Shown in pieces: positions 3,563 to 21,397 of a DNA stretch of 21,397 nt. Position numbers and translations under genes: made by a program. Every line of letters starts with the position of its first letter. Position 1 is the first letter of the stretch. The DNA comes from an uncultured Lachnospiraceae bacterium (lineage in GTDB: Bacteria > Bacillota_A > Clostridia > Lachnospirales > Lachnospiraceae). The notes under the pieces are model-generated. The model saw nothing but the letters and a program-made list of their open reading frames with translations. It searched no databases and was not told where the DNA came from. Location: contig CAMWMM010000024.1 in NCBI GenBank assembly GCA_947175285.1, positions 1 to 21,397 of the forward strand. The letters run 5' to 3'.

Positions 3563-3587
3563 AATCTTGTCCTTTCTAAGGAAATGT

Positions 3588-3604
3588 TCACAAATTATTT
3601 GTGA
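3588..3604. promoter_or_regulatory. Palindrome in the MoxR operon leader
   Basis: TCACAAAT and ATTTGTGA form a perfect inverted repeat around one base, 26 bases upstream of the MoxR start. A second, smaller one (GACAA, four bases, TTGTC) lies at 3603-3616 and shares its edge. AT-rich dyads of this size are typical of repressor operators, but they could equally be mRNA structure; nothing in the window identifies a cognate protein. Confidence 0.4.
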
Positions 3605-3667
3605 CAAGTCATTGTCATGAGTTATTTATGAGCAGTTCCTTATCATTTGCTTATTCTAAAATCTTTG

Positions 3668-4856: not shown

Positions 4857-6440
4857 CTAATATGAATTTAGTAATTCCATTGTCCCGTCATCCAGTTTCC
4901 GGCGGTACACGTCTGTCTGCAGCCTGCGATAACCCTCGCTCCATCTGCTTGCATACTCCTCGTCGCAAACGCTGAATGTTGCCTCAAAATACAGATATCC
5001 GTCTGCATAACACAAATGATCATAGGTAATCTCCCAGCCTTCCCCAATGCCTCTTTGCTCCACACTGCTGTCAATCTGTGCTGCAACCCTGACAATCGTC
5101 CCAGAATCGACCAAAAGAGCATAGACATCTCCATCCCCCTCGCACAGAGTTCCCCGGGCAGACTTTTCCTGATAAAGATAAGGACTGTTATAGATCTGTT
5201 CTGCCGCTGGCACCAGCTCCGTCGGGAAATCCGCTGAAATTATGGTATTGGTCTCCAAATCCCACACGCACGTTTTTCCAGTAAATCCGATCTCCGCACA
5301 ATCTTCAAAATACATGCGTGGGCTGCCTGTATCATGACAGAGAAAACAGTCATCAGAATTTGCTTCGATCTCCCGATAATCTGAGCCATCTGTTTTGATT
5401 GCGATAAACTTTCCTCCTTGAAAATATCTGCCACTTGGATAGTCATATGCTCCATAGACGATACCGATCCATTCCCCATCAATCTCCATCCGGCAAATAT
5501 GTTCACCAAATCCATACCCTGCTTGTGAATTGTCCGATTCCAGTTCGGCGATCAGCCTCTGCTCTCCCTCAATCGACATTGCCACCACCCTGCAGTTATC
5601 CGTATCCCAGTGTTCATCAAAATAGCACCATCCATCGTGATAACCGCAAAGATACAGACCACCGCCGGAATTGTAGGTCAACAGTGTCATTTCGCCGCTT
5701 AAACCATTTAAAACAAAATAAGCCCCCTCCCCTGTATACTCTGAAAATAAGGTCAAAACGAGAATGTTTCTGTCCAGATCAACAGCCCTGATCTCTCCAT
5801 TGCCAATATCCACACGATCTCTTCCCTGCATATCAACGGAATAGATGTTGGAAAATGTCTCTTCAATGTCATCCTTTTTCTTTGTTATCATCTCCGTCAT
5901 ATAAAACCGATCGCCAAATAGATAGAGATTGCCATACCCCTTGTCTGAAAACAGCACAGTCTTTTCGCCGTCCGCATCAATACACACAATCTCCTTATCC
6001 GTTCCTGCGGTCGGGTAATAGTACGCACTCTCTGCCCCCTCCGCAAAAGAGTCCTCGTGATACTGACGATAATATATCATGCCATCACGATACGCATATC
6101 GAAAATCTGTCTGTTCCATCTGGTCAAGCAGTGACAAGTCATCTTTGTATTGAATATAAATTTGTTCATTAGAATATGTTATCCCTTCTGTCATGTAAGC
6201 AACTGCGCGCTTTGCCTCGTCTGTATCTTCTGGCGTTAAAAACACGCTGTCCATACTTTCGGTCGTCTTTGATGTCTCCAAAATCTCTCCAGACTGCACC
6301 CCTGTTTGCATTTCTACTTCCATCCATGACACTATTTCCGTGCTCTTTCCTGTATCTATATCTGTCCAATTCTTACACGCTGTCAAAACCATGCACAGAT
6401 TCAACATCAGTATGACGAATCGATAACTCCTACAATGCAC
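4857..6440 (-). CDS. Beta-propeller-like lipoprotein (A2)
   Basis: The protein is 527 residues. The start is GTG at 6440, 10 bases after GGGAGG; the next in-frame ATG would leave a signal peptide too short. Residues 1-22 are a lipoprotein signal ending in the lipobox LTAC with the acylated Cys at 22, so it is anchored outside the membrane. After a Ser/Thr/Glu-rich linker come repeated short blades such as DGMIYYRQYHEDS, VCIDADGEKTVLF, NIYSVDMQGRDRV and DGYLYFEATFSV, which resemble DUF5050-type or other propeller sensor proteins. It is a clear paralog of the gene at 9172-10851, with long matching stretches such as LSLLDQM, YAYRDG, TAGTDKEIV, DKGYGN and GYRRxQTDVYRR. It has a 110-base upstream gap, without the 11-bp repeat array of its paralogs. 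No enzyme motif is seen. Surface binding or sensing is a guess. Confidence 0.75.
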   Translation of the reverse strand: MHCRSYRFVILMLNLCMVLTACKNWTDIDTGKSTEIVSWMEVEMQTGVQSGEILETSKTTESMDSVFLTPEDTDEAKRAVAYMTEGITYSNEQIYIQYKDDLSLLDQMEQTDFRYAYRDGMIYYRQYHEDSFAEGAESAYYYPTAGTDKEIVCIDADGEKTVLFSDKGYGNLYLFGDRFYMTEMITKKKDDIEETFSNIYSVDMQGRDRVDIGNGEIRAVDLDRNILVLTLFSEYTGEGAYFVLNGLSGEMTLLTYNSGGGLYLCGYHDGWCYFDEHWDTDNCRVVAMSIEGEQRLIAELESDNSQAGYGFGEHICRMEIDGEWIGIVYGAYDYPSGRYFQGGKFIAIKTDGSDYREIEANSDDCFLCHDTGSPRMYFEDCAEIGFTGKTCVWDLETNTIISADFPTELVPAAEQIYNSPYLYQEKSARGTLCEGDGDVYALLVDSGTIVRVAAQIDSSVEQRGIGEGWEITYDHLCYADGYLYFEATFSVCDEEYASRWSEGYRRLQTDVYRRKLDDGTMELLNSY

Positions 6441-6550
6441 TCTACTTTATCCTCCCTCTCTTACACATTCCCATCATCTGTCAGTTTATACCACCCACAC
6501 CCCACTTGACTGGAAATAAAACGATGCAAAAAGACACCCTCCTCTATGGC

Positions 6551-6960
6551 TCACAATTGCGATACCGCCCTGCCACCCGACGCACCATAATCAAAAGAAT
6601 ACTCACAGATTGTCTCAAATCTTTCATTATTCAAATTAATGCGGTAAATGTTTACTTCCCGTTTCTTATCTTTCCCTTCTGTTTCGCATACACCATAGAA
6701 ATAATCATTATAGATGCATGCGCAAGAATAAAATGGCACTTCAAACGAACTGATTTCGCCATCTGATAACTGGTACCTGCTGATCTTCTTGCTATCCAAA
6801 TAAATATCGCAGCAGTAAATACTGCCCTCATATAACATTATGGTTCCCTCAAAGTCTATATTCGAGATTTCCTTCTGCTTTCAACAGACGCCTCTATCAA
6901 ACATTGGGCTCCACTGCCATCCTCTTTGGCTCGGTATATATCATCCCATTTATTATCAAC
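6551..6960 (-). pseudogene. Frameshifted remnant of a propeller-type lipoprotein gene
   Basis: Two reading frames together give a propeller-like sequence. In the first, the C-terminal tail of the upstream lipoprotein gene reads DDIYRAKEDGSGAQCLIEASVE. In the next frame, the sequence continues QKEISNIDFEGTIMLYEG and on to NIYRINLNNERFETICE, ending at a stop at 6551. The repeated IYRxxxxxxxxxxI pattern is typical of propeller blades. Loss of one A near 6879-6882 (GAAAAGCAG to GAAAGCAG) would explain the switch. The stretch starts where the paralogous B protein ends, so a deletion probably fused the B gene to the 3' part of a third propeller gene. The open frame from 6838 alone (95 residues) could still be translated, but it has no ribosome binding site that I can see. 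Confidence 0.6.
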
Positions 6961-7929
6961 TCCCTCAATCCACCATTTTAACACTTTTGGCATACCGTCC
7001 GCTTCCCACGTGATCAGAAACTGTGCCAAGGCAACACCATGCCCGTATCCACACTCACCATATAGGTACTCCGATGCCTGTAACACCTTATTTCCTTGAT
7101 ATTCTGTCGCACATAGATCAAAATATCCTCCCAGGTTGCCGCCCACATACTGCTCTATATCAGGTAAATACCATCCCTCAGGATTCTTCGAAGTAAAAGA
7201 GATCCACTCATCAAAATAAGGACAGTAGGCTCTGTAACTGTCCACGTCAGGCTCTTGAAATACATCAACACGAAGCCCATAGTCATTATATTCCTCATGG
7301 CCATAATCGGAGGGTAACTGCATCTGCTCTATGGCATGATTTCTGTATTTGAAAACCACCTTGTAATAATCTCCCACTCCACTATAGGCTGAACCCTGTG
7401 CGCAGTATACTATCTCCATATTTTCATCCTGATCGATATTCGCCCAAAATAAATCGAAATCCCCATAATAGGGACACCATTCTTCTGAAAAACAGTAAGG
7501 GTCATCCTCATTCATGTAAAACCAGAGACTGCCAAAACCATAAAAAGTCTTTTCCCGCGCGTCCATCACCACAACCAGCATATCTGTCTGGTCATTACCA
7601 TCTATATCACCGATCCGAAGCCCTGTCAGCTCCATTACCCCGTCTTGGAAAATATGATCATCCATCAGCACCTGCAGATATATCTCCGCTTCCTCCTGAT
7701 CAATTCCCTGCTCCAATGCCTGCCGATAAAACATCTCCTCGTTGATCTGCATCTGCTTTTCGGGATAATATCCTTCAGGATTCTCATAAATACTTATCTC
7801 ACTCTCCGCTGTCTCCCACTCTTTTATAGCTTTCTCCGGTCTCTGACCTGAGGAACATCCAACTCCACATCCAATGCATAACAATATCAGAACGATCAAT
7901 CCAACGCTTCTGGTCTGAAAACTCTCCAT
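6856..7929 (-). CDS. Lipoprotein with DxDGN calcium-loop motifs (B2), extended by fusion
   Basis: The protein is 357 residues. ATG at 7929 is preceded by AGGAGG at 12 bases. A lipoprotein signal ends at Cys 25 (GVGC), with Cys 21 as an alternative. The body matches its paralog at 7965-9002 throughout. It has an early helical segment (EQGIDQEEAEIYLQVL), then DIDGNDQTD (108-116) and NIDQDENME (164-172). These are EF-hand-like or FG-GAP/VCBS-type calcium-binding loops. It then has conserved CPYFDEWI and ASEYLYGE stretches. The paralog stops just after KWWIEED; here KWWIEG (318-323) runs on for 34 residues derived from a propeller gene remnant. It is 35 bases after the paralog, so the two are probably cotranscribed. 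It is anchored outside the membrane; the function is unknown. Confidence 0.72.
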   Translation of the reverse strand: MESFQTRSVGLIVLILLCIGCGVGCSSGQRPEKAIKEWETAESEISIYENPEGYYPEKQMQINEEMFYRQALEQGIDQEEAEIYLQVLMDDHIFQDGVMELTGLRIGDIDGNDQTDMLVVVMDAREKTFYGFGSLWFYMNEDDPYCFSEEWCPYYGDFDLFWANIDQDENMEIVYCAQGSAYSGVGDYYKVVFKYRNHAIEQMQLPSDYGHEEYNDYGLRVDVFQEPDVDSYRAYCPYFDEWISFTSKNPEGWYLPDIEQYVGGNLGGYFDLCATEYQGNKVLQASEYLYGECGYGHGVALAQFLITWEADGMPKVLKWWIEGVDNKWDDIYRAKEDGSGAQCLIEASVESRRKSRI

Positions 7930-7964
7930 AAAATGATTGTTCCTCCTATCACTATCCTGCCATT

Positions 7965-9002
7965 TTAGTCTTCTTCAATCCACCACTTAACCACCTTCGG
8001 CGTCCCGTCTGCCTCCCATGTGATCAGGAACTGTGCCGTGGCAACATTATTTACGACTCCTCCCCCTCCATACAGATATTCCGAGGCCTGCAACGCATTC
8101 TTTCCCTGGTACTCTGCTACACAAAGGTTATAAAATCCCCTCGCATTGCAGCCCACACTCACTGTTGTATCAGGAAACTTCAACTCCTCACCATTCTGCA
8201 CATTGAAGCAAATCTTTTCATCAAAATAGGGACAGTACGCACTATAGCGATTTGCCTCCGGTTCCTGAAACACCTCAACAAAAAGTCCGCAGTCATAATC
8301 CTCCTCAAAGTCAGATGGCATCTGCATTCGCTCTATGGAATGATCTTTGTACTTAAAAACAGCTTTGTACGAATCTCCCACCGCACCGCAGCCTGTCCCC
8401 TGTGCGCTGAACACGATCTCCACATTCTCATCGTTGTCAACATCGTCCCAGAACGTGTCAAACCATCCGTAATAAGAGCAATCCTCCTCTGAAAAACAAT
8501 ATGGCTCGTCCTCATTCATATAAAACCAGAGACCACCCGAACCGTAAAAAGGTGTCTCTCGCGCATCCAGCACCATAACCAGCATATCCATCTGACCATT
8601 GCCGTCTATATCATCGATCCGGAGTCCTGTAAGCGCCATAGCTCCATCCTGAAAAATATTATCTTTTTTCAAAATTTGTAGATATGTATCTGCCTCCTGC
8701 CTGTCAATCCCCTGTTTTTCTGCCTCCTCAAAAAATTTCTCTTCGTTTTTCCTGTTCTGCTCCCCGGGAGAAAATTCTTCTGCCAATCTCTCTGGAACAT
8801 CGGACTCCGGCTCAGATGTTTCTTCTATTATTTCTTGTGTATTTTCCTCTTCTGCGCTCTGCTCCTCCTGAACAGAACTTTGTGTTATCGCCTGTTCTTC
8901 TCCGGATCGCTCTGCCCCCTGGTCAGATGCACATCCAAAACTAACTCCCATACATATTGATATTAAAATGATATTTCCAACTCTGCTGACTCTCTTTTTC
9001 AT
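7965..9002 (-). CDS. Lipoprotein with DxDGN calcium-loop motifs (B1)
   Basis: The protein is 345 residues. ATG at 9002 lies 8 bases after AGGAGG. A signal peptide ends in the lipobox SFGC (Cys 24), followed by an acidic Glu/Ser-rich linker (~25-80), typical of a flexible tether outside the membrane. DIDGNGQMD (131-139) and DVDNDENVE (187-195) look like calcium-binding loops of the FG-GAP/VCBS kind. The rest is nearly colinear with the next gene, showing tandem duplication. It has its own promoter region with four 11-bp direct repeats at 9103-9146, in the 169-base gap after the propeller gene. It may lead a two-gene transcript with B2. No enzyme signature is seen, and the family is not one I can name precisely. 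Confidence 0.75.
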   Translation of the reverse strand: MKKRVSRVGNIILISICMGVSFGCASDQGAERSGEEQAITQSSVQEEQSAEEENTQEIIEETSEPESDVPERLAEEFSPGEQNRKNEEKFFEEAEKQGIDRQEADTYLQILKKDNIFQDGAMALTGLRIDDIDGNGQMDMLVMVLDARETPFYGSGGLWFYMNEDEPYCFSEEDCSYYGWFDTFWDDVDNDENVEIVFSAQGTGCGAVGDSYKAVFKYKDHSIERMQMPSDFEEDYDCGLFVEVFQEPEANRYSAYCPYFDEKICFNVQNGEELKFPDTTVSVGCNARGFYNLCVAEYQGKNALQASEYLYGGGGVVNNVATAQFLITWEADGTPKVVKWWIEED

Positions 9003-9076
9003 TACCGTCTCCTCCTACGCATACCAATATACCCCGGGATCTCCTTTACAGCTGTTTTCGCGGCCAAGCCCCCGAG

Positions 9077-9146
9077 AGTATATGCCAATATTATTTTACG
9101 CAGGAAATGCATCCTATTTGTATCAGAATTGCATCAAAGTTGTAAC
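9077..9146 (-). promoter_or_regulatory. Promoter with four 11-bp direct repeats upstream of lipoprotein B1
   Basis: On the plus strand four 11-mers follow each other without gaps from 9103 to 9146: GGAAATGCATC, CTATTTGTATC, AGAATTGCATC, AAAGTTGTAAC. The shared core is TTGTATC. The 11-bp period is the helical spacing of OmpR/PhoB-family response regulator sites. A -10 is either TAATAT (minus strand, 9088-9093) or TATACT (9077-9082). The array lies where an activator would contact polymerase. The same array precedes the gene at 9172-10851. Confidence 0.65.
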
Positions 9147-9153
9147 ATAAATC

Positions 9154-9173
9154 AGGAATTTCTATAAATTCCT
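9154..9173 (-). terminator. Hairpin overlapping the stop codon of lipoprotein A1
   Basis: AGGAATTT and AAATTCCT pair perfectly around a 4-base loop and overlap the stop codon of the leftward gene. The stem is AT-rich and there is no T tract after it, so termination is doubtful; it may only stabilise the transcript end. Confidence 0.3.
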
Positions 9174-10851
9174 AATACGAATACAACAGTTCCATCTCAC
9201 CATCAGCGAGCCTGCGGCGGTACACATCCGTCTGTATTCTGCGGTATCCGTCGCGCCAGCCGATCGCATACTCGTCGTCATACACATTAAACTCCGTCTC
9301 GAAATACAGATAACCATCCGCATAATACAGATGCTGATAATCAATCTTATACTCTTCCATGTCTTCTCTTGGTCTGATATCTTCGTCAATCCGCACGGCA
9401 GCCCTGACAACGCTGCCAGAATCGTCAGGCAGAGCATAAAAGTCTGTCCCTCCTGTGCTGCGCTGGTACACGCACACCGGATTTGAGAGCCCTGTCAGTC
9501 CCTCGATCGCTATTTTATGATCAAGACTGGAGATCATCTGAACCGGAAAATCACATGGATAAGTAATATTTTTTTCCACATCCCATACTGTTGTCTCGTA
9601 ATCATTTTCACCGTCTGCCGCCTGCTCTCCGTCATCATACCTGTAGTGCGGAAAATAAACCAATGGCCGCCCCTGTTCCTGCCGGACATAAAACTGGTCT
9701 GCGCTGCATTCGACTGCGCGGTAATCTGAGCCATCCAGCCTGGTCGTCAGTATCCTTCCTCCCTGATAAAAACTACCACTTCCAGCATAACCTCCAAACA
9801 CAATATAAATACGCTCCCCCTCAACACGCAAATCACAGATCCACTCACGATATCCATACTCCTCTGTTGTCATATCCGAAGTCAGCGCGATAACTTCCCT
9901 GCGCTCTCCATCCAGAGACACCGCCACAACCCTTTCAATCCCATCTCCAGAATCCTCTTCAAAATAACACCAGCCATCATGATAATCCCAGAATGTACGA
10001 TATTTGACCGTATCAAGTGGCAGAACTGTCAATTCACCACTTTCAGCATTTAAAATGGTATAAACGGTCTCCTGTTTATCTTCCGAATAAAATTCCATAA
10101 CAATACATTTTCTATCCCAGTCAACAAAACAGATCTTTCCGTTCTCGCCGTAATCGATTCGGTTGCGCCCCTCCATATCCACAGAATACACATTGGTGTA
10201 CCTCCGCTCCATATCGCCATCTTTCTTTGAAATCAGTTCCGTCATATAAAACCGTTCCCCCATCAGATAGATGTTCCCATATCCCTTATCATGAAAAAGC
10301 ACTGTACTTTCGCCGTCCGCATCGATACGCACAATCTCCTTGTCCGTCCCTGCCGTCGCCTGATAATTTCCCCACAGTGCGCCTTCCTCATAAGAATCCT
10401 TGTGATACTGGCGGTAATATACATTGCCATCGCGATAAGCATAACTGCAGTCCGTCTGCCCCATCTGATCAAGCAGAGACAAGTTGTCTGTATACACAAC
10501 TGGAAATTTCTCGCGGGAACGTTCGGGTTTCTCTGTCGTGTAAACTGTGATAACCTCCGCCTTAAATGACATATCGTCTGTGTGATGCTCTGTCTGTGAA
10601 CCATCTTCCAGTTCCTCCGCTTCCGAAACCTGCGTTTCCGAAGTATTCGCTTTCAGGCTCTGTGTCTCCAGGACATCTGGCCCTGCATCCTGTTCCTCTA
10701 AATCATGCAAAGCTTCCGTTCGCACGGTCTGAGCTTCTGCACCCACGCTGGAATCATCCATGATTTTTTGATCTGTCTGATTTCCACATGCCGTCAAAGT
10801 CAGTCCCAGCAGCAACACCACTATGTTATACCAATTTTTCCTGCAGCACAT
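9172..10851 (-). CDS. Beta-propeller-like lipoprotein (A1)
   Basis: The protein is 559 residues. ATG at 10851 lies 8 bases after AGGAGG; the longer frame begins with a TTG upstream of that site and is rejected. Residues 1-22 form a lipoprotein signal with lipobox LTAC (Cys 22), then a long Glu/Thr/Ser-rich tether to about residue 100. The remainder has propeller-like blades (DGNVYYRQYHKDS, VRIDADGESTVLF, NVYSVDMEGRNRI, DGYLYFETEFNV) that align along their whole length with the lipoprotein at 4857-6440. It is cell-surface anchored. It is expressed from a promoter with four 11-bp direct repeats at 11059-11102 and a leader of roughly 180 bases. It probably senses or binds something at the surface, but there is no catalytic motif and the role is unknown. 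Confidence 0.75.
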   Translation of the reverse strand: MCCRKNWYNIVVLLLGLTLTACGNQTDQKIMDDSSVGAEAQTVRTEALHDLEEQDAGPDVLETQSLKANTSETQVSEAEELEDGSQTEHHTDDMSFKAEVITVYTTEKPERSREKFPVVYTDNLSLLDQMGQTDCSYAYRDGNVYYRQYHKDSYEEGALWGNYQATAGTDKEIVRIDADGESTVLFHDKGYGNIYLMGERFYMTELISKKDGDMERRYTNVYSVDMEGRNRIDYGENGKICFVDWDRKCIVMEFYSEDKQETVYTILNAESGELTVLPLDTVKYRTFWDYHDGWCYFEEDSGDGIERVVAVSLDGERREVIALTSDMTTEEYGYREWICDLRVEGERIYIVFGGYAGSGSFYQGGRILTTRLDGSDYRAVECSADQFYVRQEQGRPLVYFPHYRYDDGEQAADGENDYETTVWDVEKNITYPCDFPVQMISSLDHKIAIEGLTGLSNPVCVYQRSTGGTDFYALPDDSGSVVRAAVRIDEDIRPREDMEEYKIDYQHLYYADGYLYFETEFNVYDDEYAIGWRDGYRRIQTDVYRRRLADGEMELLYSY

Positions 10852-11039
10852 AACAAACTCCTCCTTATACAATCACTATTCAGCAATCCAGCCACATTCT
10901 ATGCCTATCTGGCGAACGTTGTCCCCCTCCATTGACAGACCTCTCACCCGATCTCGCGACATAAGAAATTGCTTCTCCATACACAGAAAATATCTCCCGT
11001 TTCAGTGTGACACCTCCACCGGGAGAATCCAAAATAAAC

Positions 11040-11203: not shown

Positions 11204-11608
11204 TCATACACGCTTTAGCAATTCCTCACATTTATCCAATATCCCTATGTCCGCCGGAAGCCAGTCAACACTGTGCAAATCGTCCTTTCCAAGCCACCTT
11301 GCAGATTCATGTTCTTTCAAAACCAAATCGCCTGACTTGATCGTACAGGCAAAACAATCCATGGACAGATGGAAATTGGGGTAATCGTATTCGATCGTAT
11401 CCACCAGTTCTCCCACCTCAATCTCTGTATCAAGCTCTTCCCTGATCTCCCGCTTAAGAGCCTGCTGCGGCGTCTCTCCTTCCTCGATCTTTCCACCCGG
11501 AAATTCCCAGCCATCCTTGAACTCACCATATCCACGCTGCGTGGCAAAAAGCTTATTGTTATCCACAATGATCGCTGCTGCTACTTTTATTGTTTTCATA
11601 TGTTTCAT
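11204..11608 (-). CDS. NUDIX hydrolase, MutT/8-oxo-dGTP diphosphatase-like
   Basis: From ATG at 11608 the protein is 134 residues, the usual length for MutT-type pyrophosphohydrolases, and GGAG lies 11 bases before this start. The NUDIX box runs from 39 to 61: GKIEEGE, then seven residues, then REIREELDT. The catalytic Glu residues (54, 57, 58) are present. The usual Gly near the end of the box is Asp here, a change also seen in active clostridial homologs as far as I recall. The family cleaves nucleoside triphosphates or related compounds to monophosphate plus pyrophosphate, often cleaning oxidised nucleotides. It is cytosolic. The same frame stays open up to an ATG at 11740, adding 44 residues that resemble another domain; see the separate entry. 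Confidence 0.85.
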   Translation of the reverse strand: MKHMKTIKVAAAIIVDNNKLFATQRGYGEFKDGWEFPGGKIEEGETPQQALKREIREELDTEIEVGELVDTIEYDYPNFHLSMDCFACTIKSGDLVLKEHESARWLGKDDLHSVDWLPADIGILDKCEELLKRV

Positions 11609-11740
11609 TTGATCTTCTGCTCCGTTTTTATTACTTTTAAGAAAGTTTGTATAATCTGATGCAAACTGTATCTCAAGTTTTTTCGCCTTTATCAAATCGA
11701 AATCCGTGACACCTTTGAATAATTTTGATTCCTTCAACAT
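11609..11740 (-). pseudogene. SUKH (SMI1/KNR4)-like fragment in frame with the NUDIX gene
   Basis: From ATG at 11740, 44 codons run without interruption into the NUDIX gene. The stretch LIKAKKLEIQF followed by ASDYTNFLKSNKNG fits the start of SUKH domains, where helix one ends in a Lys/Glu-rich segment, then a short strand, then Pro/Ser-x-Asp-Tyr-x-x-Phe-Leu and a Gly-rich turn. A stop lies three codons upstream, and the ATG has only a weak GAAG site. It is probably the truncated 5' part of an immunity-type gene joined to the NUDIX gene by a deletion, possibly giving a 178-residue fusion. Recognition is by eye over about 30 residues. Confidence 0.45.
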
Positions 11741-12238: not shown

Positions 12239-14089
12239 TTATGCTAAATTTGACCTCATTATACTAAAGTAACCTATTTCTGGATTCTCAAGTGTCCCTA
12301 TTAAAACACCTCTATCAAGTAATCTGTTTCCATTTTCACAACATGTTTCTGGCAAAATTGCACAGTTATGACATGCTGCCAGGTTACATGAATCTGTACC
12401 TTGTCCCAAAGATTGAATACACACGGGATCTGACGTACACCATAGTGCATTTCTCAATGCAGAAACGATGGTATTCTCAATTCTTCCCTTTTCGCCCTGT
12501 CTTACTAAGCCACCTAATGAGCCTTCTGAATCACCTGATGCCGTATAGATAAGAACCCCTGTCATGTTAAATTTATTATTATCCAATTCACAATATATTC
12601 TTTCCCTAAGGGCGGAACTTCCATAGCCACATTCAAAACTAAGCTGATTAATCAAAATATGTGAAAATGTATGTAATAGCACATACTCTGGCCGCAATTC
12701 ACCCTGCAGACCTTTTCCAAAATATGAACTCTTATACGAATCGCTCATTCTTTGAACACGTTTCATCACCACCTCATTTTGTGCCCATGATTGCAATTTT
12801 TCCTTATCAAATTCAAAAAAGATGCCTTCTCCCAAAGTTGCAATTGCAGGAAGCCAATTTCCACTTCCTAACCTCAGTAACTTTTTACTATTTGAGATAG
12901 ATAATGCATTGGGTTTCAATCGTGAAAACCCAACAAAAACACGTGTTTCTCGTAGCTTCGGAACTAATGTTATGCTTTGGAAAAAATCTTGTATTACCAT
13001 ATTATATTCACTAATCGGATGATTGATGGAATAAAACTCTTGTGCATCGTTGCCACTACTTTTATTCAAAACCTTATACTCAGCGAAACGATATTCCTCT
13101 TCAGACATATTTTCATTCACTTCTTGCATTCCTTCAATTGCATCTGCTTTTTCCAAAATAGCTTCGTATAACTTGTCACCATCTACATTTTTCGCTTGGG
13201 CATACATATTAATAAAGTTTCTATCAAATTTACCATCCGTACGTGAGTTATTTAATACATCAAATATTTCATTTACTAACCCAACAATTTTTAAATTTGA
13301 TTCTTCACCATTTGTTGGAATATATATCGAACTAATATTATTCGCAAACCATACATTAGTAGCGCCACGAAGAACTACTCTAATATCCTCTGGTTCGGAA
13401 GGGCACGAATTTTCATCATCTTTATATACTCCTAACCATGGTTTTGTCCCTTTACATTTATATTCTATCTTTTTAAGTGCACCTGGTCTTGTTGCCCCCG
13501 AAATAGATTTTTTTACACCACATGAACACTCATAAAAAACGCCACTCAACCCTGCAGACGTTCCACCAGTACTTCTTCTAATTTTACATTTGGTGTCATC
13601 ATATACCTTACCACTATCATGGTGTATCCATTCTGCAACAGGAAAATCATCAATATGTCCTTCTGGACAAATAGCAACAAATCTTTCTGGAATCATTTTC
13701 CTTCTATGTTTTGATTCTTTACTACATTTTCTACCATGTTCCCATTGGTATGCGTCACATTCAGGTTGTGCTTCATAATAAGTTGTTTTCTTCATCGTTC
13801 CACAAAATGGGCAATAATACCATCTTGGAAACCTTACTGCAGGAATAGTCAGATGATAATCTGCAGGATCTGCATTTTTCTCCATATATTCAGGTGGGTA
13901 TCTCAATTCTTTTACTCCCAACCTTTTCTCTAAACGCTCATCTCTAATAACAAACTTTTCCGGATTATTATATCTCCACATATCAAGACCGGCTATCATC
14001 AATGATTCATCATTCGGAAATGGAACAATTGCCCCTATGCCCCAAGGTCCGATTAATGAACTTCTTCTCATCGGCTTATACATAGTCAT
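12239..14089 (-). CDS. drmB: DrmB-like DUF1998 protein of a DISARM-like system
   Basis: The protein is 616 residues, starting at ATG 14089 with AAAGGGATG just upstream, 2 bases after the drmA stop. The N-terminus (RRSSLIGPWGIGAIVPFPN, ~8-26) is the hallmark start of DrmB. Zinc-binding-type cysteines follow: CPFC (93-96), C111, C122, CPEGH (141-145) and CSC (188-190). The C-terminal half carries the DUF1998 (MrfB-like) signature: HTFSHILINQLSFECGYGSSALRERIY at ~473-499, YTASGDSEGSLGGLV, and a cysteine cluster C551, C557, C568, C573, C576, C583, C584, which is probably a metal site. In DISARM, DrmB forms a complex with the helicase DrmA and helps it load on or translocate phage DNA. This is the last gene of the four-gene operon; no drmC follows. 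Confidence 0.88.
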   Translation of the reverse strand: MTMYKPMRRSSLIGPWGIGAIVPFPNDESLMIAGLDMWRYNNPEKFVIRDERLEKRLGVKELRYPPEYMEKNADPADYHLTIPAVRFPRWYYCPFCGTMKKTTYYEAQPECDAYQWEHGRKCSKESKHRRKMIPERFVAICPEGHIDDFPVAEWIHHDSGKVYDDTKCKIRRSTGGTSAGLSGVFYECSCGVKKSISGATRPGALKKIEYKCKGTKPWLGVYKDDENSCPSEPEDIRVVLRGATNVWFANNISSIYIPTNGEESNLKIVGLVNEIFDVLNNSRTDGKFDRNFINMYAQAKNVDGDKLYEAILEKADAIEGMQEVNENMSEEEYRFAEYKVLNKSSGNDAQEFYSINHPISEYNMVIQDFFQSITLVPKLRETRVFVGFSRLKPNALSISNSKKLLRLGSGNWLPAIATLGEGIFFEFDKEKLQSWAQNEVVMKRVQRMSDSYKSSYFGKGLQGELRPEYVLLHTFSHILINQLSFECGYGSSALRERIYCELDNNKFNMTGVLIYTASGDSEGSLGGLVRQGEKGRIENTIVSALRNALWCTSDPVCIQSLGQGTDSCNLAACHNCAILPETCCENGNRLLDRGVLIGTLENPEIGYFSIMRSNLA

Positions 14090-14091
14090 TT

Positions 14092-17000
14092 TTATTCATC
14101 CCTTTCTACGTATCTGTTCTTTATAACCATTGCCTCGCATGATGCATCAACACTACGCATTGACGTCGGGGTTTTCAATCCTCGCTCATTCCATATTGCA
14201 TTAGGTTTATTGCTTGAACTATAAATCAATGGAACTGCATTCCCCATAGAATGATCATAATTCATTTGTGGTGTCCATCTCTGCGGATTCCAATCCTCCC
14301 AACATTGTAATACATACTCCATGCGCTTCAAAGTATCCGATAATTCTTCTGGATCTATATCATTTACACGATTCTCTATTACTGCTTTTACATGCTCTAT
14401 TACTTCTGGTCGTGGCAGCTTAGGTGGATTTTGATTAAATTGTTCTCCGTGTTCCAACCTCATCATACCTATAATAATTGCATGTAAAGCACGTTCTCTT
14501 ATAGGTGTCGAAAATGGTGTGACGCTTGTAGGTTCAACATGGCAGTATAGTTTTGAATGATACAGTTTAAACTGCTCATAAAATGATTTGTCTCTTGGAC
14601 GTCCTGGTCTGTATAACACAAAAATAAGTCCAGGTGCATGCTGTGCATCTCTACCTACTCTACTCGTTGCTTGAATATATTCAGATGTCGTTTTAGGTTG
14701 TCCCGCTACTGTCATTAAGCCCAAACGTTGTACATCAAGTCCTACTGATATCATATTCGTTGCCAAACAAATATCTATTGGATATTCCTTTGCCTTTCCA
14801 TCTTCATTTAATTTTGGCGGATAGCCAATATTTAAGTTTGAAAGACTCGCTGTTACTTTATCTCCTGGAATTCGACTTGTAAGTTCTTCATCATGCCAAA
14901 TATATCTTCTATATGCTTTATACGTCTCTTGATCCATTCTCTTGTCATCATATCTTCTCTTATACATAACATCTAAATGCTGCTCAATATCTGCTTTAAT
15001 CCAAGTTTGAGCATTTCCTAACTCTCGAATACTATTATAATATCCAACATTAGTCCAATACGGATCTCTATCCTTTTCATTCTCAACCTTCATTGTTTTT
15101 GCTGCATATAACAACGCAGAAAATAAACGTATTGCAGTTGTTGCATCCGAGGGTGAACCAGATGCTAATATCCCAACATATTTGCGTCCATTTTTTGTTT
15201 TGTCTTCATTTGCAAAAAATGAATCTCCCGCATCCAATCCTGCTGGAGGAAATTGAAATACATTTTCTATTTTACATCCATACAATGCATGACACTGTTC
15301 TTTTGCACGACTTATAGTTGCTGTTGATGCAATAATTTTGGGGGAAATATTTCCCGAAGGTAATCTTTCTGTACACAAATCATGTATCATTGTTTCATAA
15401 TGCCCTACCATCGACCCTAATGGACCAGATATTAAATGAAGTTCATCTTGGATAATCAAATCTGGTGATGTTACCTTTTCTCCATTTTTATATCCAAAAA
15501 TACTTTGCGCTTCTGGCTTATATGGTAACATTGCAAACTTATCTACTGTTCCCAATACTAATGTCGGTGCCTTCTCATATATGTCATCATCAATAATATA
15601 TAACGGAAGTCCCGTGCCACTCGAAAATACACATCCTTTTTCCGTATTTGTACACCTGAAGATAAACTTTTTTGATTTTCGTGCCCCTGTAATAATCCTG
15701 TAGCCGGGAAGTTTTCTTTTACCCCCAATATCAACCACCCCCATCTGTGCTCCGCACCATGGACATTTCAACATTACAAAGGGATTAATATTCGTTCTAT
15801 GATTATATAGATCATCATACTTAGCAACTGCATCTTTCATATGGTTTGGAGTCGTATCTCCACCAACCCATAAACCAATATTAATTTCTTCTTCGCCTAA
15901 AACCTCTTTATTATCGCGACGAATAACTTCACAGGCACAAATCATTGCAGCAGCTCTTTCATATTGTTGCGCTGTAAGTAACCTTAAAGTGTAACGCATA
16001 ATAATTGCCGTACCAATATCATCTTTATTACGTAATCTTCTAACAAAAATAGTAAATGCTGACAAACCAAGATATGCCTCTGTTTTTCCACCACCTGTAG
16101 GAAACCATATCAAGTCAACAATTTTCCTCTCTTTTCCCTTTTTATTGCTCATGGATTCTAAATTCATCAAAATAAAAGCAATCTGAAACGGTCGCCACTT
16201 ACCATATATGCGTTGTTCTTTCTTATACCATGTTGATTCATCGTATATATCTGGCATGCTTTCAATTGAACTTTCAAGTTTAATTCCATCATCTCCATCG
16301 TCAATCCAAATTTGGAGAGGCAAACCATAATGAAGTTGTTGCATAAACATTGCTTGATTCATCCATTGAAATGCTTTTTGGACAATCTCATCATTTTCTA
16401 AAATACTTACACCATTCTCCATCCTTTTTTGGCACACTTTACAATTTGTTATATGTCTTTCTGCTGTTTCCAAATACTTATTATCAAGTTCCATTTTTTG
16501 CTTCTCTAATTTGTCAATCCAAATCCTGTACTTTTCACATAGCAAATGCAACTGGCAAATAACTTCACTAAAGTGTTCCACGTTGCTCATATCAAGCATA
16601 CTCAAATTTACACCCGAAATGGTACTGGGAACCACTGGCTTTACCTCATAAGATGGAAAAACAGATGTTTCTATCCATTTTACAGATTCATTCACCTCAT
16701 CCCACTCGGCCGCACAACCATGTCCAATAGCATAGTTTCTTACATTGCGATAGAGCAATTCATTTGATAAAAAATCTTCATCTGCATTAATTCGTTGTCC
16801 TTCTGGCAGAAAGTGAAAACCCATTTTTGATTCTATTTTAAGTTTTACCTGAAAAAAACAATCCTCATCTCGAACTTTCATGTCCTTCATTTCTTTAGTG
16901 TTTTCAAGCGTAATTGTATATATACAGTAATCATCTTTTCTAAAGCGAAATGTAATATCAATTCTAAGTCCTGTATCATCAACTGGTATTCTTTTAATCC

Positions 17001-17517
17001 CTTCCTTTTCTGAGGGCAAAATTAATGACTCCAACGAACTCCACACTATTGGAGTTCTAGAATACTTTGTCGTGACTTTTTGATTATCTGAATTTGTTTC
17101 AGTTGACTTATTATATATTCCCGCTTCTACACATGCTATTATTTCATCTTCTAAGGAAATTGCAACCGTCAAACTCATTGCAGATTGATTATATGCATTT
17201 GATCTATCAATAAGTTCCTCTGCATCTTCAAGATATTCACCCAAAAAGCCGCAAGGCCTATTGGGGGTAATGATTTTACCATCGTCGCTTTCATCTTCAA
17301 TCTCGATATCCTCATCTTTCCTTTCTTCTTCAGCATTATTGTCTTCCTTTGACTCCTTTGGAAACAAAATACCGGCAATATACCTTGTCCGCGGAGGATC
17401 TGAAATCAATATTTCTTCCCCATTCTCCTGCCTAAGTCCCTCCCAATCAATAGGATCTGGTCCAATAAACTCTCTCTCTACAAATGTTTTTAATTGGTCT
17501 CTTCTATTGTCTTCCAT
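14092..17517 (-). CDS. drmA: DrmA-like DISARM helicase
   Basis: The protein is 1141 residues, starting at ATG 17517, 8 bases after GAGGAG, and overlapping the upstream gene by 14 bases. An acidic low-complexity insert lies at ~57-79. The helicase core begins with a Walker A-like WFPTGGGKTEAYLG (471-484), then a zinc-ribbon insert (CPWC at 585-588 with C622 and C629), motif II QDELH (690-694), motif III-like STAT (731-734) and motifs V-VI with TNMISVGLDVQR (920-931) and QATSRVGR (949-956). The DELH in place of DEAH, the GGGK loop and the C-terminal RERALHAIIIGMMR (1007-1020) are characteristic of DrmA. The protein is expected to use ATP to translocate on invading DNA with DrmB, blocking or exposing it to nucleases. 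It is of usual length and complete. Confidence 0.9.
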   Translation of the reverse strand: MEDNRRDQLKTFVEREFIGPDPIDWEGLRQENGEEILISDPPRTRYIAGILFPKESKEDNNAEEERKDEDIEIEDESDDGKIITPNRPCGFLGEYLEDAEELIDRSNAYNQSAMSLTVAISLEDEIIACVEAGIYNKSTETNSDNQKVTTKYSRTPIVWSSLESLILPSEKEGIKRIPVDDTGLRIDITFRFRKDDYCIYTITLENTKEMKDMKVRDEDCFFQVKLKIESKMGFHFLPEGQRINADEDFLSNELLYRNVRNYAIGHGCAAEWDEVNESVKWIETSVFPSYEVKPVVPSTISGVNLSMLDMSNVEHFSEVICQLHLLCEKYRIWIDKLEKQKMELDNKYLETAERHITNCKVCQKRMENGVSILENDEIVQKAFQWMNQAMFMQQLHYGLPLQIWIDDGDDGIKLESSIESMPDIYDESTWYKKEQRIYGKWRPFQIAFILMNLESMSNKKGKERKIVDLIWFPTGGGKTEAYLGLSAFTIFVRRLRNKDDIGTAIIMRYTLRLLTAQQYERAAAMICACEVIRRDNKEVLGEEEINIGLWVGGDTTPNHMKDAVAKYDDLYNHRTNINPFVMLKCPWCGAQMGVVDIGGKRKLPGYRIITGARKSKKFIFRCTNTEKGCVFSSGTGLPLYIIDDDIYEKAPTLVLGTVDKFAMLPYKPEAQSIFGYKNGEKVTSPDLIIQDELHLISGPLGSMVGHYETMIHDLCTERLPSGNISPKIIASTATISRAKEQCHALYGCKIENVFQFPPAGLDAGDSFFANEDKTKNGRKYVGILASGSPSDATTAIRLFSALLYAAKTMKVENEKDRDPYWTNVGYYNSIRELGNAQTWIKADIEQHLDVMYKRRYDDKRMDQETYKAYRRYIWHDEELTSRIPGDKVTASLSNLNIGYPPKLNEDGKAKEYPIDICLATNMISVGLDVQRLGLMTVAGQPKTTSEYIQATSRVGRDAQHAPGLIFVLYRPGRPRDKSFYEQFKLYHSKLYCHVEPTSVTPFSTPIRERALHAIIIGMMRLEHGEQFNQNPPKLPRPEVIEHVKAVIENRVNDIDPEELSDTLKRMEYVLQCWEDWNPQRWTPQMNYDHSMGNAVPLIYSSSNKPNAIWNERGLKTPTSMRSVDASCEAMVIKNRYVERDE

Positions 17518-19252
17518 TTACTAATCTCCTCATCATCAAAGTTTGATATTCGGTATGTGCTGCTTTACTTTCCAAAATAAACAAACCACTTCTCGCCCTA
17601 CTTAGTGCGACATACATAAGTTTCTCTGCGCTATATGTATCAATATCCGTAAGAATAATTACTGCATTTTCTAAACCTTTGAATGACTGAATTGTCGAAA
17701 ATGTAATATCTTTTGTTTTTGTAAAATTAAAATCTTTTATTTTGATTTTCTCTACCTTCGACACAATTGAATTCTCTCTCCTTCTCGGCGAGAGAATTGT
17801 AATTTGTTCATTGACAATATGTTTTTCATCTAACGATAACAATAATTCTTCCAGTTTTTCAATAGCTTCATCATCTGAAGAATAGGTTATATGTTCAACT
17901 GGTGGCCCATCCACTTTCGACCATAAATCATCAGGTGCTTCAAATCCTGTAATCGTTTGTATTTCTTGGCAAATCTGCTTTGTATTCCTACAGTTCTCCG
18001 TCAATTTACAACGTACAAAAGCAGTTCTTTCTTCTAGCAAATCCAATAATTCTTTGCCATTAACATTTTCACTATAAATTGCTTGTCTTGAAAAATCTCC
18101 AAAAAACTTCCATCTCCCCAAATCAAAACCTTTTCTAATAATCAAGTCAAAAATATCAATATACTTTTCATTAATTAAATCTTGGGCTTCATCTACAACA
18201 ATTTCATCAAACTCTATTGGACTAGTTAATAAAATTTCTTCTGCCATCATCGGCAACATTTCTGTATAGAAGATGGTCTTATTATGATCATCCGATGGAA
18301 TACAAATCTGTTTTTCCGATTTAGCAACCACATCATAGAGCAATTTATGAAATGTCCCAACAAATTTAGGATGTAAATCCTCTGGTTTACCCGCAAAATA
18401 CGACTGAAACCAACGGCCTATACTGGCATTATAACACATTAATGCCACCTCTTTTCCTTCTGCAATTAGCTTTTCCACCTGTCTAATGGCTAAAAGTGTT
18501 TTTCCTGTTCCTGCAGGACCATAAACAATTGCACGACTATTTTCTTCTATCTGATCGACACATTTGTACTGCTTCTGTGTCAACTCCACAAGTTCCTGTT
18601 CTGCATACTTAATCTTTGCGCTTATTGCAACTGCTTTGTCAAAATCACCTCTTAATAGATTAGCAATATATTTAACATCCTTTATTGTTGGTAATTTCTT
18701 TTCGTCAAAATGTTTATATAGTTCTGTTACATGTTTCCTAGCGCCTTTTGCCAAACGTATTATGTAAGATTTTACGTCTCCGCCATCTTTACAATCAAAT
18801 ACTTGCCACGGTTCTTCATCAACTCCCACTGTGCCATAATCTATGTCTGGGAACATTACACCTGACCAGTAAAATGTATTTGCCACATGGTAATGTAATG
18901 TATCTGCTTTCTCCCCAACTGCCTTCATCAAACTATGAATGCCTTCCCTAGCTTGGTCAAATGGACCTCTCTCTTTAGCATCTGTGTTCCCTTTTCGGCC
19001 AGTAAAATACCAAATTCCATTTTCGCGCCTTACCCGCCCCCCCTTTACTTCTAATGCGAACATACCTAGTTCGGGTGCAATAACCAAAAAATCGATTTCT
19101 CCATATGGTAATTTTATATGTTCTGCTAATCCAAGCGAATGTAAGACAATCCAATTTTCTGTTCCTAGTGACTCCTGAAACCACTGGAAAACTCTACGTT
19201 CTGCGCTACTTTTTGTATCAGGCGAAATAATTGATGGTATCATTCTTGCCAT
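17504..19252 (-). CDS. NERD nuclease-domain / SF1 UvrD-like helicase fusion
   Basis: The protein is 582 residues from ATG 19252, with AAAGGAG 8 bases before, overlapping the end of the drmE-like gene by 13 bases. Residues ~14-110 form a NERD domain of the PD-(D/E)xK type: E18 in SAERRVF, D54 in GEIDFLVI, E68-x-K70 in ALEVKGG, and a conserved GPFDQAREG (96-104). A superfamily 1 helicase follows: GPAGTGKT (245-252), TFHKLL (motif Ic-like, ~300), VVDEAQDL (352-359), GDFSRQAIY (385-393), LTENCRN (417-423), STIQSFKGLENAVI (519-532) and YVALSRARSGL (547-557). NERD domains are predicted nucleases fused to DNA-handling enzymes. Inside a DISARM-like operon it probably degrades or unwinds invading DNA, filling the nuclease position usually taken by drmC. 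Activity is inferred from intact motifs. Confidence 0.85.
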   Translation of the reverse strand: MARMIPSIISPDTKSSAERRVFQWFQESLGTENWIVLHSLGLAEHIKLPYGEIDFLVIAPELGMFALEVKGGRVRRENGIWYFTGRKGNTDAKERGPFDQAREGIHSLMKAVGEKADTLHYHVANTFYWSGVMFPDIDYGTVGVDEEPWQVFDCKDGGDVKSYIIRLAKGARKHVTELYKHFDEKKLPTIKDVKYIANLLRGDFDKAVAISAKIKYAEQELVELTQKQYKCVDQIEENSRAIVYGPAGTGKTLLAIRQVEKLIAEGKEVALMCYNASIGRWFQSYFAGKPEDLHPKFVGTFHKLLYDVVAKSEKQICIPSDDHNKTIFYTEMLPMMAEEILLTSPIEFDEIVVDEAQDLINEKYIDIFDLIIRKGFDLGRWKFFGDFSRQAIYSENVNGKELLDLLEERTAFVRCKLTENCRNTKQICQEIQTITGFEAPDDLWSKVDGPPVEHITYSSDDEAIEKLEELLLSLDEKHIVNEQITILSPRRRENSIVSKVEKIKIKDFNFTKTKDITFSTIQSFKGLENAVIILTDIDTYSAEKLMYVALSRARSGLFILESKAAHTEYQTLMMRRLVNGRQ

Positions 19253-21396
19253 AAAACATTCTCCTTTTCTTCTGCAAGTATCTTATTGGTATCATTTACA
19301 TTAACTGGTATCCATTCTTGCCCCAAATCAATAACTTTAAGTATTTTAACATACCCTACATCTTCCAAATTAAGTTCTATTGAATCCCAAATATTATATG
19401 GATCTATTCGTTCTCCAGAAAATAATTTTTTTGCTATCCCTTCTGTTAACCGTTCAGACAATATTCGTCCCGCTTTGATATGCGCATTTTTTATAAAAAT
19501 CCCAGCATTGAAAACTTCATCTTTTTTTTCCAACAATACAGCGTCTTTTGTCATTTGTGCTATAAAAGTTAAATCTTCCTTATCCCGAGGAATAATAATA
19601 TCTTCCGATAAAATCCAGTTACGCACAGTTTGCATATTTCTAGTACATCCCAAAGCACATAATGCATTATATATATCTTCTATAGAAGAAAACGCAAATT
19701 CAATTTGTAGGGCTTCTTTCCATAATGCAGCAATCTTTCTTAAGGATAGCTTATTATTTGCCTCTAAAATATTATCTGCCACCTCTCTTATGATATCTTT
19801 TGAGGATTCTCGAACAACAACGAAATCTCCAATCACAAGTTCTCCAATTTCCTTTTCCTCTATCTTATCGCCTGTCTGTGTAATAATATTTGAAGCTACT
19901 AATATTTTATGTCCACTGGTATATAGCGCAAATTCTCCTCCAACAAAGCCTACCGGTTTTGCATTTACTATACTCTCTTGAGTTTGTCCACTTCTTGACA
20001 TATACTGGCGATATCTGTTTTCTTGCATAATCAAGTCAAAATCATCTTTTTCATGTAACACACTTTGCTCTACTTCAGTCATTTCAAGCATTTTTGCATT
20101 TTCATGAACTCGTATAGTCTGATTTGCAAATGATTTCTCGGCAATTACTTTATTATTTTGATTATTAAGTCCAATTTTCCATGACCTTGTATGCGCTCTT
20201 TTCCAACGTTCCTCGCATTCATAAGTGTAAATATGTATTTCCTCAACTAAATACCCATAAATAATCTTTCTCAGAACGGAAGCACTTAACCAACCTGAGA
20301 TAATAGCAATATCTGAAGTATATTTATCTAACTTCAGAAAATCCTTTGCATACATTACCATAATGTTTGGTCTATAGTTACGCTTTGCTAGTCTCTCAAT
20401 CCAATACTCTTTTACTGCTTGGACCAGATCATTATTGGCACAAATTAAGTAAAACGAATCTATACGCCTATCTATTAAAAACTGATAAATCGCTTCCGTT
20501 TTGGGATAAGAATTCATTTTTCTACTTACTATTTCGATATTTTTAATGACCGTTTTAAAATCAAAGTAAACTACTTCGTCAATAAATATTTTCTCTTCTT
20601 CTAAACTCTTTTGGCAAAATTGGATGACTTCAGAGAATTGTTGTTTCTCTACAGTTCCAATCTCTCTTACATTTCGGAGCATCGAATACAAGAGTGTCAG
20701 AAGCTTTCTAAATATAATATTTAACTTAGCAGACTCATTTTCTATGAGGTGATTATAATGATATAAAATATTAAAACTATCACTTATTTCTGGTGCCGAC
20801 AGACTATGATAATTGACTTTTGCGTTAACACATTTCTCTATTTTCTTGGCAAGCTTTATTCCCTCATTACTTCTTACGCTCTCTGAAATACTATCTTCAT
20901 CCCATCTCCAAACATTAAACTTTCTATCCTGCAAAAATTTTAAATTAAAAGAATTCGCTGTATCGGTTATGCACAAAATTGGAATTTTATATTGTAACAA
21001 ATCGTCCAACGCTGCCAACTGGCTCTCCATATTACACTCTGTCAGATTTATAATTACAGACTGCACTTTCGCTCCATAATTAATCGCTTTATTAACATAA
21101 TCTATTTGACTCGCAAAACTTAGAGCAGGTATTCCTATATATTTTCCCTTTAGCATCTTCATCTCACCAGTATATTCCGTTAATGCCACCAGAAAATATT
21201 CTAGCAACGGGTCTCCGTCAATCAATATCTTACCAGCAAAATTCCGACTATTAGTTACTGATGCAACATAAAAAATCGTCTTTTTGACATGTGTTTTTAT
21301 CTCTTTCAAATCATGTAAATAATTTTCATGAGTTCTCTTTTCTTCATCTATTTTTCTTTTTTCTTTACGATATGATGCCAGTTTAGATATTTTCAT
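19240..21396 (-). CDS. drmE: DrmE-like DISARM protein, start at the window edge
   Basis: At least 718 residues; the first ATG lies one base from the window end, so the true start and its ribosome binding site may be outside. No clear Walker motif is present. Residues ~80-165 resemble a Rossmann-like segment with QSVIINLTECN. Residues ~310-395 hold a second alternating alpha/beta part with IISGWLSASVLRKII (365-379) and IHIYTYECEERW (387-398), the Gly-Trp and Tyr-Glu-x-x-Trp pattern I associate with DrmE family proteins. Residues ~491-530 are beta-rich. The C-terminal region around 551-616, with CTRNMQTVRNWI followed by IIPRDKEDLTFIAQM, looks like a helix-turn-helix-type module. DrmE occurs in class 2 DISARM and its role is unknown. 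It heads the four-gene operon here, directly coupled to the NERD-helicase. Assignment rests on the neighbourhood as much as on sequence. Confidence 0.68.
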   Translation of the reverse strand: MKISKLASYRKEKRKIDEEKRTHENYLHDLKEIKTHVKKTIFYVASVTNSRNFAGKILIDGDPLLEYFLVALTEYTGEMKMLKGKYIGIPALSFASQIDYVNKAINYGAKVQSVIINLTECNMESQLAALDDLLQYKIPILCITDTANSFNLKFLQDRKFNVWRWDEDSISESVRSNEGIKLAKKIEKCVNAKVNYHSLSAPEISDSFNILYHYNHLIENESAKLNIIFRKLLTLLYSMLRNVREIGTVEKQQFSEVIQFCQKSLEEEKIFIDEVVYFDFKTVIKNIEIVSRKMNSYPKTEAIYQFLIDRRIDSFYLICANNDLVQAVKEYWIERLAKRNYRPNIMVMYAKDFLKLDKYTSDIAIISGWLSASVLRKIIYGYLVEEIHIYTYECEERWKRAHTRSWKIGLNNQNNKVIAEKSFANQTIRVHENAKMLEMTEVEQSVLHEKDDFDLIMQENRYRQYMSRSGQTQESIVNAKPVGFVGGEFALYTSGHKILVASNIITQTGDKIEEKEIGELVIGDFVVVRESSKDIIREVADNILEANNKLSLRKIAALWKEALQIEFAFSSIEDIYNALCALGCTRNMQTVRNWILSEDIIIPRDKEDLTFIAQMTKDAVLLEKKDEVFNAGIFIKNAHIKAGRILSERLTEGIAKKLFSGERIDPYNIWDSIELNLEDVGYVKILKVIDLGQEWIPVNVNDTNKILAEEKENVLWQE

Positions 21397-21397
21397 C

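Follow-up and report, generated by a model that had tools for sequence, protein, structure and literature searches.

The 21,397-nucleotide stretch analyzed here (the window; contig G000:C316:409-21805), from an uncultured Lachnospiraceae bacterium, contains four genes of a DISARM defense operon whose full order is drmMII-AIPR-drmE-NERD-SF1-drmA-drmB. The operon combines the DrmA-DrmB core, DrmE and a cytosine methylase with NERD-SF1, a protein with a predicted nuclease domain joined to a helicase, and no drmC gene was detected in it. On balance, we favor the reading that such operons form a widespread DISARM variant in which host DNA would be recognized as self by its methylation, DrmAB would detect DNA ends that are unmodified, and the nuclease would come from NERD-SF1.

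Gene content of the operon

The genes of the operon are as follows, with window positions unless the contig is named (aa, amino acids):

drmB: 12239-14089, minus strand; 616 aa, DUF1998/MrfA zinc-binding type
drmA: 14092-17517, minus strand; 1141 aa, SF2 (YprA-family) helicase
NERD-SF1: 17504-19252, minus strand; 582 aa, N-terminal NERD (PD-(D/E)xK) nuclease domain and UvrD-like SF1 helicase
drmE: 19240-21397 in the window and on to contig position 22236, minus strand; C-terminal 718 of 862 aa in the window
AIPR gene: contig 22239-24296, outside the window, same direction; 685 aa, between drmMII and drmE
drmMII: contig 24320-25597, outside the window, same direction; 425 aa, cytosine methylase

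From these coordinates, the intergenic spacings along the operon from drmMII to drmB are 23, 2, -13, -14 and 2 bases. A first-pass annotation of the window had described a DISARM-like set of four overlapping or nearly touching minus-strand genes in the order drmE, NERD-SF1, drmA and drmB; coordinates and family matches agree with it, and the large proteins fall in the families it had named, DrmB, DrmA and DrmE by NCBIfam and the NERD-UvrD helicase by PADLOC. DrmA matches NF038325 (E=3.2e-288, above cut-off) and the solved DrmA chain 7s9v_A (E=2.7e-144), and its translation retains intact Walker A and DELH-type motifs. DrmB matches NF038324 (E=8.9e-138, above cut-off) and Pfam MZB, and a DrmB profile built in this analysis matches the solved DrmB 7s9v_B; the nearest PDB chains of the two proteins are thus the solved DrmA and DrmB themselves. 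The DISARM core, a DrmA helicase and a DUF1998-type DrmB encoded by separate adjoining genes, is therefore present, and with DrmE and a methylase also matched, the DISARM-like identity of the operon is supported. Within the phylum, DrmB was found above cut-off in 15 of 398 genomes.

The window stops within drmE, at a gap in the assembly: contig positions 21806-21815, directly after it, are 10 N. The drmE start formerly placed at 21396 is an internal ATG, and the frame goes on across the 10-N gap. The portion of DrmE in the window matches NF038316 with E=2.2e-100, and the full reading, 862 aa including four X residues from the gap, does so with E=3.7e-120 over profile positions 1-838, the whole profile. 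This match supplies the DrmE component of PADLOC type II DISARM; the PADLOC scan itself returned no DrmE match for this drmE. Across the gap lie the AIPR gene (PF10592, E=1.9e-98) and, beginning 2.5 kb beyond the window edge, the methylase gene, for which DrmMII is the best PADLOC model (E=1.7e-162). Its sequence carries PCQ, ENV and QSRKR motifs, which we take to be the methylase motifs of those names. The DNA methyltransferase expected of DISARM is thus in the operon, beyond the window. Since the window ends at a gap inside drmE with the methylase beyond, the earlier statement that the operon has none holds for the window alone and is a window-edge artefact. The extension of the right flank that the first-pass annotation had proposed, in search of a methyltransferase or a PLD gene, recovered the former; no drmC or PLD match was found among the scanned genes of the contig (window and flank), in line with its view that drmC is missing from the operon.

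The same six genes stand in identical order, without any N, at L142 (genome G842), and the viral contig locus L057 (the same contig as L100 and L139) has the same six-gene arrangement. Together with the family E-values, this recurrence in other genomes excludes chance. At the operon ends, promoter-like sites were no more frequent than in shuffled sequences and no terminator was identified. An AIPR gene between a C5 methylase and the drmE place, the arrangement of the window's operon, recurs in L142, L057 and L021, the last a marine Pseudohongiella single-cell record; a viral scan with the AIPR protein returned only the already known viral contig.

Two alternatives concern the continuity of the operon across the gap. 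An assembly chimera, in which the genes right of the gap would be foreign to the operon, could draw on the position of the 10-N gap inside drmE and on an assembly contamination of 8.7%, but the halves of drmE join in frame and match the DrmE profile end to end, and L142 and L057 show the identical arrangement, so that a chimera is highly improbable. The first-pass annotation had further suggested self recognition independent of host DNA modification. The window itself is without a methylase, but DrmMII is part of this operon on the far side of the gap and again in the gap-free L142, which together rule out a methylase-free DISARM here, provided that the methylase is active. The presence of a DNA methyltransferase gene in the operon leaves nothing in favor of self recognition independent of modification, and we give a DISARM system of that kind almost no credence.

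NERD-SF1 and drmC across DISARM loci

The PADLOC model that best matches NERD-SF1 is RTasNERD-Hel (E=2.7e-49, nearly full length). The ExD ... ExK core of PD-(D/E)xK nucleases (E52, D54, E68, K70) is invariant in 42/42 aligned NERD-SF1 proteins, as are Q100 and the motor residues. Pfam NERD PF08378 gives no match to the window's protein and does match relatives, e.g. in L119, L123 and several other loci. The SF1 motifs (Walker A, DEAQ, NCRNT and LSRAR-type) are invariant in a 19-row alignment, and the predicted fold matches PcrA, Rep and UvrD in VIA-align, which covers mainly the helicase parts and barely the NERD domain.

To compare NERD-SF1 with drmC, we took 57 DISARM loci found via drmA, drmB or drmE (19 genomic, 16 viral and 22 plasmid) and annotated them with profiles built in this analysis. 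NERD-SF1 was present in 15, DrmC in 19, neither in 23 and both in none (Fisher p=0.00097, in a test that ignores relatedness). Restricting the count to the 47 loci whose flanks reach 1.9 kb or more on each side of drmA-drmB, a set in which L003 and L087 were kept by hand, gave NERD-SF1 in 12, DrmC in 18, neither in 17 and both in none (p=0.0014), and with L142 added to the full set the counts were 16, 19 and 23 (neither) of 58 (p=0.0005). The NERD-SF1 threshold of E<1e-20 was our own choice, and the weaker SF1 matches in L114, L125 and L126 were scored as neither. L087 was set NERD-positive by hand, the NERD gene lying at the opposite end of the same contig (L075). Dropped as copies were L075 and L088 (genome of L087) and L110 (genome of L109); L094-L096 were dropped with DrmB below cut-off, and three more such genomes were not taken in. 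The plasmid loci represent 22 of 86 matching records, hand-picked from 60 listed with near-copies skipped, and the plasmid NERD-match list, known before picking, included 4 of those chosen.

A NERD-guided genome scan, which selects for NERD and is thus no census, was kept out of the 57-locus count. Of the 26 strong NERD-SF1 loci among the matches listed, 17 lie beside drmA/drmB; within the retrieved stretch, DrmC is absent from all 17 and a C5 methylase is present in 14, and the NERD-DISARM records include Verrucomicrobiota, Acidobacteriota, Actinomycetota, Pseudomonadota and Melainabacteria. The first-pass annotation had called for a genome survey of the gene order and of how often methylase and drmC are missing. 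The order does recur and drmC never accompanies NERD-SF1 (0/57), but a C5 methylase is present in the retrieved stretch of 10 of the 15 NERD-bearing loci that were not selected by NERD.

In a quickly built tree of 69 DrmA rows, two sides separate with SH-aLRT 99 at the split. Side 1 (34 rows) comprises 18 loci with DrmC, 8 with NERD-SF1 after drmB and 8 with neither; NERD-SF1 there lies directly after drmB, the usual drmC position. Without the NERD-selected loci this side retains 5 with NERD-SF1, 18 with DrmC, 8 with neither and 0/31 with both (p=0.0076, relatedness again ignored). Side 2 (35 rows), which includes the window's operon, comprises 20 loci with NERD-SF1 before drmA, 2 with NERD-SF1 after drmB, 13 with neither and none with DrmC. 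The proposal that the NERD protein takes the place of drmC is borne out as avoidance, no locus carrying both, but not as position in this operon, where NERD-SF1 precedes drmA on a DrmA side that is without drmC in all its rows. Replacement of drmC fits best where NERD-SF1 directly follows drmB. Because the window's NERD-SF1 lies before drmA in a clade without drmC, the relation here may be a lineage difference rather than a swap. In L085, L103, L104 and L123, where NERD-SF1 follows drmB, a second, larger SF1 helicase of 791-824 aa lies just before drmA.

Proposed mechanism and alternatives

DrmE is predicted to adopt an SF2-helicase fold, RIG-I/SNF2-like, without ATPase motifs. VIA-align lists mainly helicase parts for it and barely covers the C-terminus, and Walker A and DExx motifs are found in 0/15 long DrmE open reading frames (ORFs; 14 distinct) and 0/4 shorter ones. 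A sequence relationship of DrmE to DrmD or DrmA was considered and rejected; profile comparison gave no match to either, so only the resemblance in fold is retained. Against solved structures the best match of the DrmE profile was to unrelated kinesins (E 0.029). DrmE is rare near the source organism, being above cut-off in 3 of 392 genomes of the order and 6 of 398 of the phylum (own genome counted in both) and in 2 of 82 genomes of another class, and a plasmid search with the window's DrmE returned no match. For this functionally uncharacterized DISARM subunit, the predicted fold offers a structural hypothesis. At L029:5337-10001 the drmE place is taken by a protein of ~1550 aa with sacsin-like and SF2 helicase domains, and ORFs of similar length occupy it in L031 and L032; all three are actinobacterial NERD-DISARM loci.

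According to PMC9142583, DrmAB is activated by unmethylated 5'-overhang DNA, and DrmC is dispensable and often missing, with the DISARM nuclease left open. In the mechanism that we propose, DrmMII would methylate host cytosines and so mark self, and DrmA-DrmB would load on unmodified DNA whose free end is single-stranded, as is reported for Serratia DrmAB (PMC9142583), and open it. DrmE, with its SF2-helicase fold lacking ATPase motifs, may hold the DNA or assemble the complex. As an ATP-driven motor that carries a nuclease domain, NERD-SF1 would then cut or degrade the DNA opened by DrmAB, which is the job proposed for DrmC in other systems, and AIPR would be an optional extra. A more tentative extension of this scheme is that the window's DrmA clade, one of the two large ones, never used DrmC and instead joins three helicase-fold proteins, gated by cytosine methylation: DrmA as active SF2 helicase, DrmE as an SF2 fold whose ATPase was lost and NERD-SF1 as active SF1 motor and executioner nuclease. 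In the other clade, a relative would also have moved into the place behind drmB that DrmC otherwise holds. As a conserved nuclease-helicase whose gene avoids drmC, NERD-SF1 is a concrete candidate for the DISARM nuclease, and search tools that require DrmC would overlook or misname such operons.

NERD-SF1 could instead be a back-up or suicidal effector, or a DNA-end processing helicase, with DrmAB blocking phage DNA largely alone. The reported dispensability of DrmC and the possible action of DrmAB by blocking (PMC9142583) agree with such a role, as do proposals that the NERD domains of BREX and Dnd systems serve as back-up effectors (PMC12839542, PMC10853773) and the 23 of 57 loci with neither nuclease gene, but the invariance of both nuclease and motor residues and the avoidance of drmC fit a role shared with DrmC, and we judge the alternative unlikely. 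It is quite doubtful that the operon is an ordinary DISARM minus drmC into which NERD-SF1 hitchhiked as part of a defense island, without a DISARM role. The mixed island neighbors and the 9 of 26 strong NERD-SF1 loci, among the matches listed, without DISARM in the retrieved stretch would suit this explanation; NERD-SF1 is nevertheless embedded in the operon, its ends overlapping those of its neighbors, occupies the same place in L057, L072-L074 and L142, and directly adjoins drmA or drmB in several phyla.

Both of these counts also weigh against NERD-SF1 as the nuclease of a DISARM variant, although some of the 23 loci are cut by contig ends, and several further observations do the same. The window's DrmA clade is without any DrmC, so avoidance is partly a matter of lineage. 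In type II DISARM as published, DrmC occurs alongside DrmE (PMC9252829), whereas none of the sampled loci combines the two; the sample does not represent that combination, and NERD-SF1 is not to be taken as a general type II feature. The predicted model of NERD-SF1 is only moderate (pLDDT 74, pTM 0.41), and Foldseek TM-scores for the NERD-SF1 and DrmE models are low, <=0.26 (query-normalised, among the matches listed). Finally, on contig C214 of the same assembly (L093:1160-2766), a DrmC-like gene (100.9 bits against a cut-off of 133) adjoins a partial second drmB, and DrmC could act in trans if this contig is from the same organism.

Genomic setting and comparison with known systems

The operon was probably acquired horizontally, given that its G+C content (34.9%) deviates from that of the stretches to the left (44-48%) and of the Vsr-JetC stretch to the right (48%; the remnant stretch between has 33%), and that the best match of NERD-SF1 among 35 same-genus genomes is 2.8e-17. 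The assembly contamination noted above means that the host is not certain. The contig is a defense island. On its part right of the window (L003:11627-15837), a Vsr endonuclease gene and a large JetC3-like (Wadjet-type) gene come after the operon. Broken frames upstream of drmMII seem to resemble an IS630-type transposase; three of them gave no match in Pfam. Downstream of drmB lies a NUDIX hydrolase gene (window 11204-11740) of the candidate defense family PDC-S07 (E=1.6e-51), the minus-strand genes at window 4857-10872 have no Pfam, NCBIfam, PADLOC or PHROGs match, and at window 81-3607 a DUF5682 gene (E=9.2e-96) adjoins a MoxR/GvpN-like AAA ATPase gene. Elsewhere, on a Sphingomonas plasmid with drmD, methylase, drmA and drmB and no drmC at that locus, a type I-E cas operon starts right after drmB (L136:11994-16787).

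With type (class) II DISARM, composed of DrmA, DrmB, DrmC, DrmE and DrmMII (PMC9252829), the operon shares DrmA, DrmB, DrmE and DrmMII; it differs in lacking DrmC and in the extra NERD-SF1 (between drmE and drmA) and AIPR (between drmMII and drmE). Since DrmC is missing, we do not file it as type II DISARM in the strict PADLOC sense. Type (class) I DISARM (DrmA, DrmB, DrmC, DrmD, DrmMI) has the DrmAB core and a methylase in common with it, whereas the operon is without DrmD or DrmC and has DrmE and a C5 cytosine methylase. NERD-SF1's best PADLOC match is a reverse-transcriptase-associated NERD helicase, yet no reverse transcriptase was found among the scanned contig genes. ARMADA type II (PMC12458937) similarly combines a methylase and a YprA-type helicase with an SF1 helicase that carries a nuclease-type domain fused at its N-terminus, but its SF1 protein resembles GajB and has a RelE-like domain; here the domain is NERD, and DrmA and DrmB form separate proteins of DISARM type. 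TALON shares a YprA-like helicase and a NERD nuclease, and that paper places NERD in TALON, not DISARM. TALON further carries genes for TPR-CSD and TBP along with an ARMADA-like helicase (PMC12458937). No such helicase is in the window's operon, and the Pfam scan of contig genes named no TPR-CSD or TBP, with several neighbors matching no family. A precedent for exchange is BRIGADE, in which a PLD nuclease is occasionally swapped for a PD-(D/E)xK nuclease, although BRIGADE, unlike this operon, is a 7-deazaguanine-type system of halophilic archaea (PMC12458937). No description of a NERD-SF1 helicase in DISARM was found in the literature searched, which did not include the founding DISARM paper (Ofir 2018), most subscription papers or supplements.

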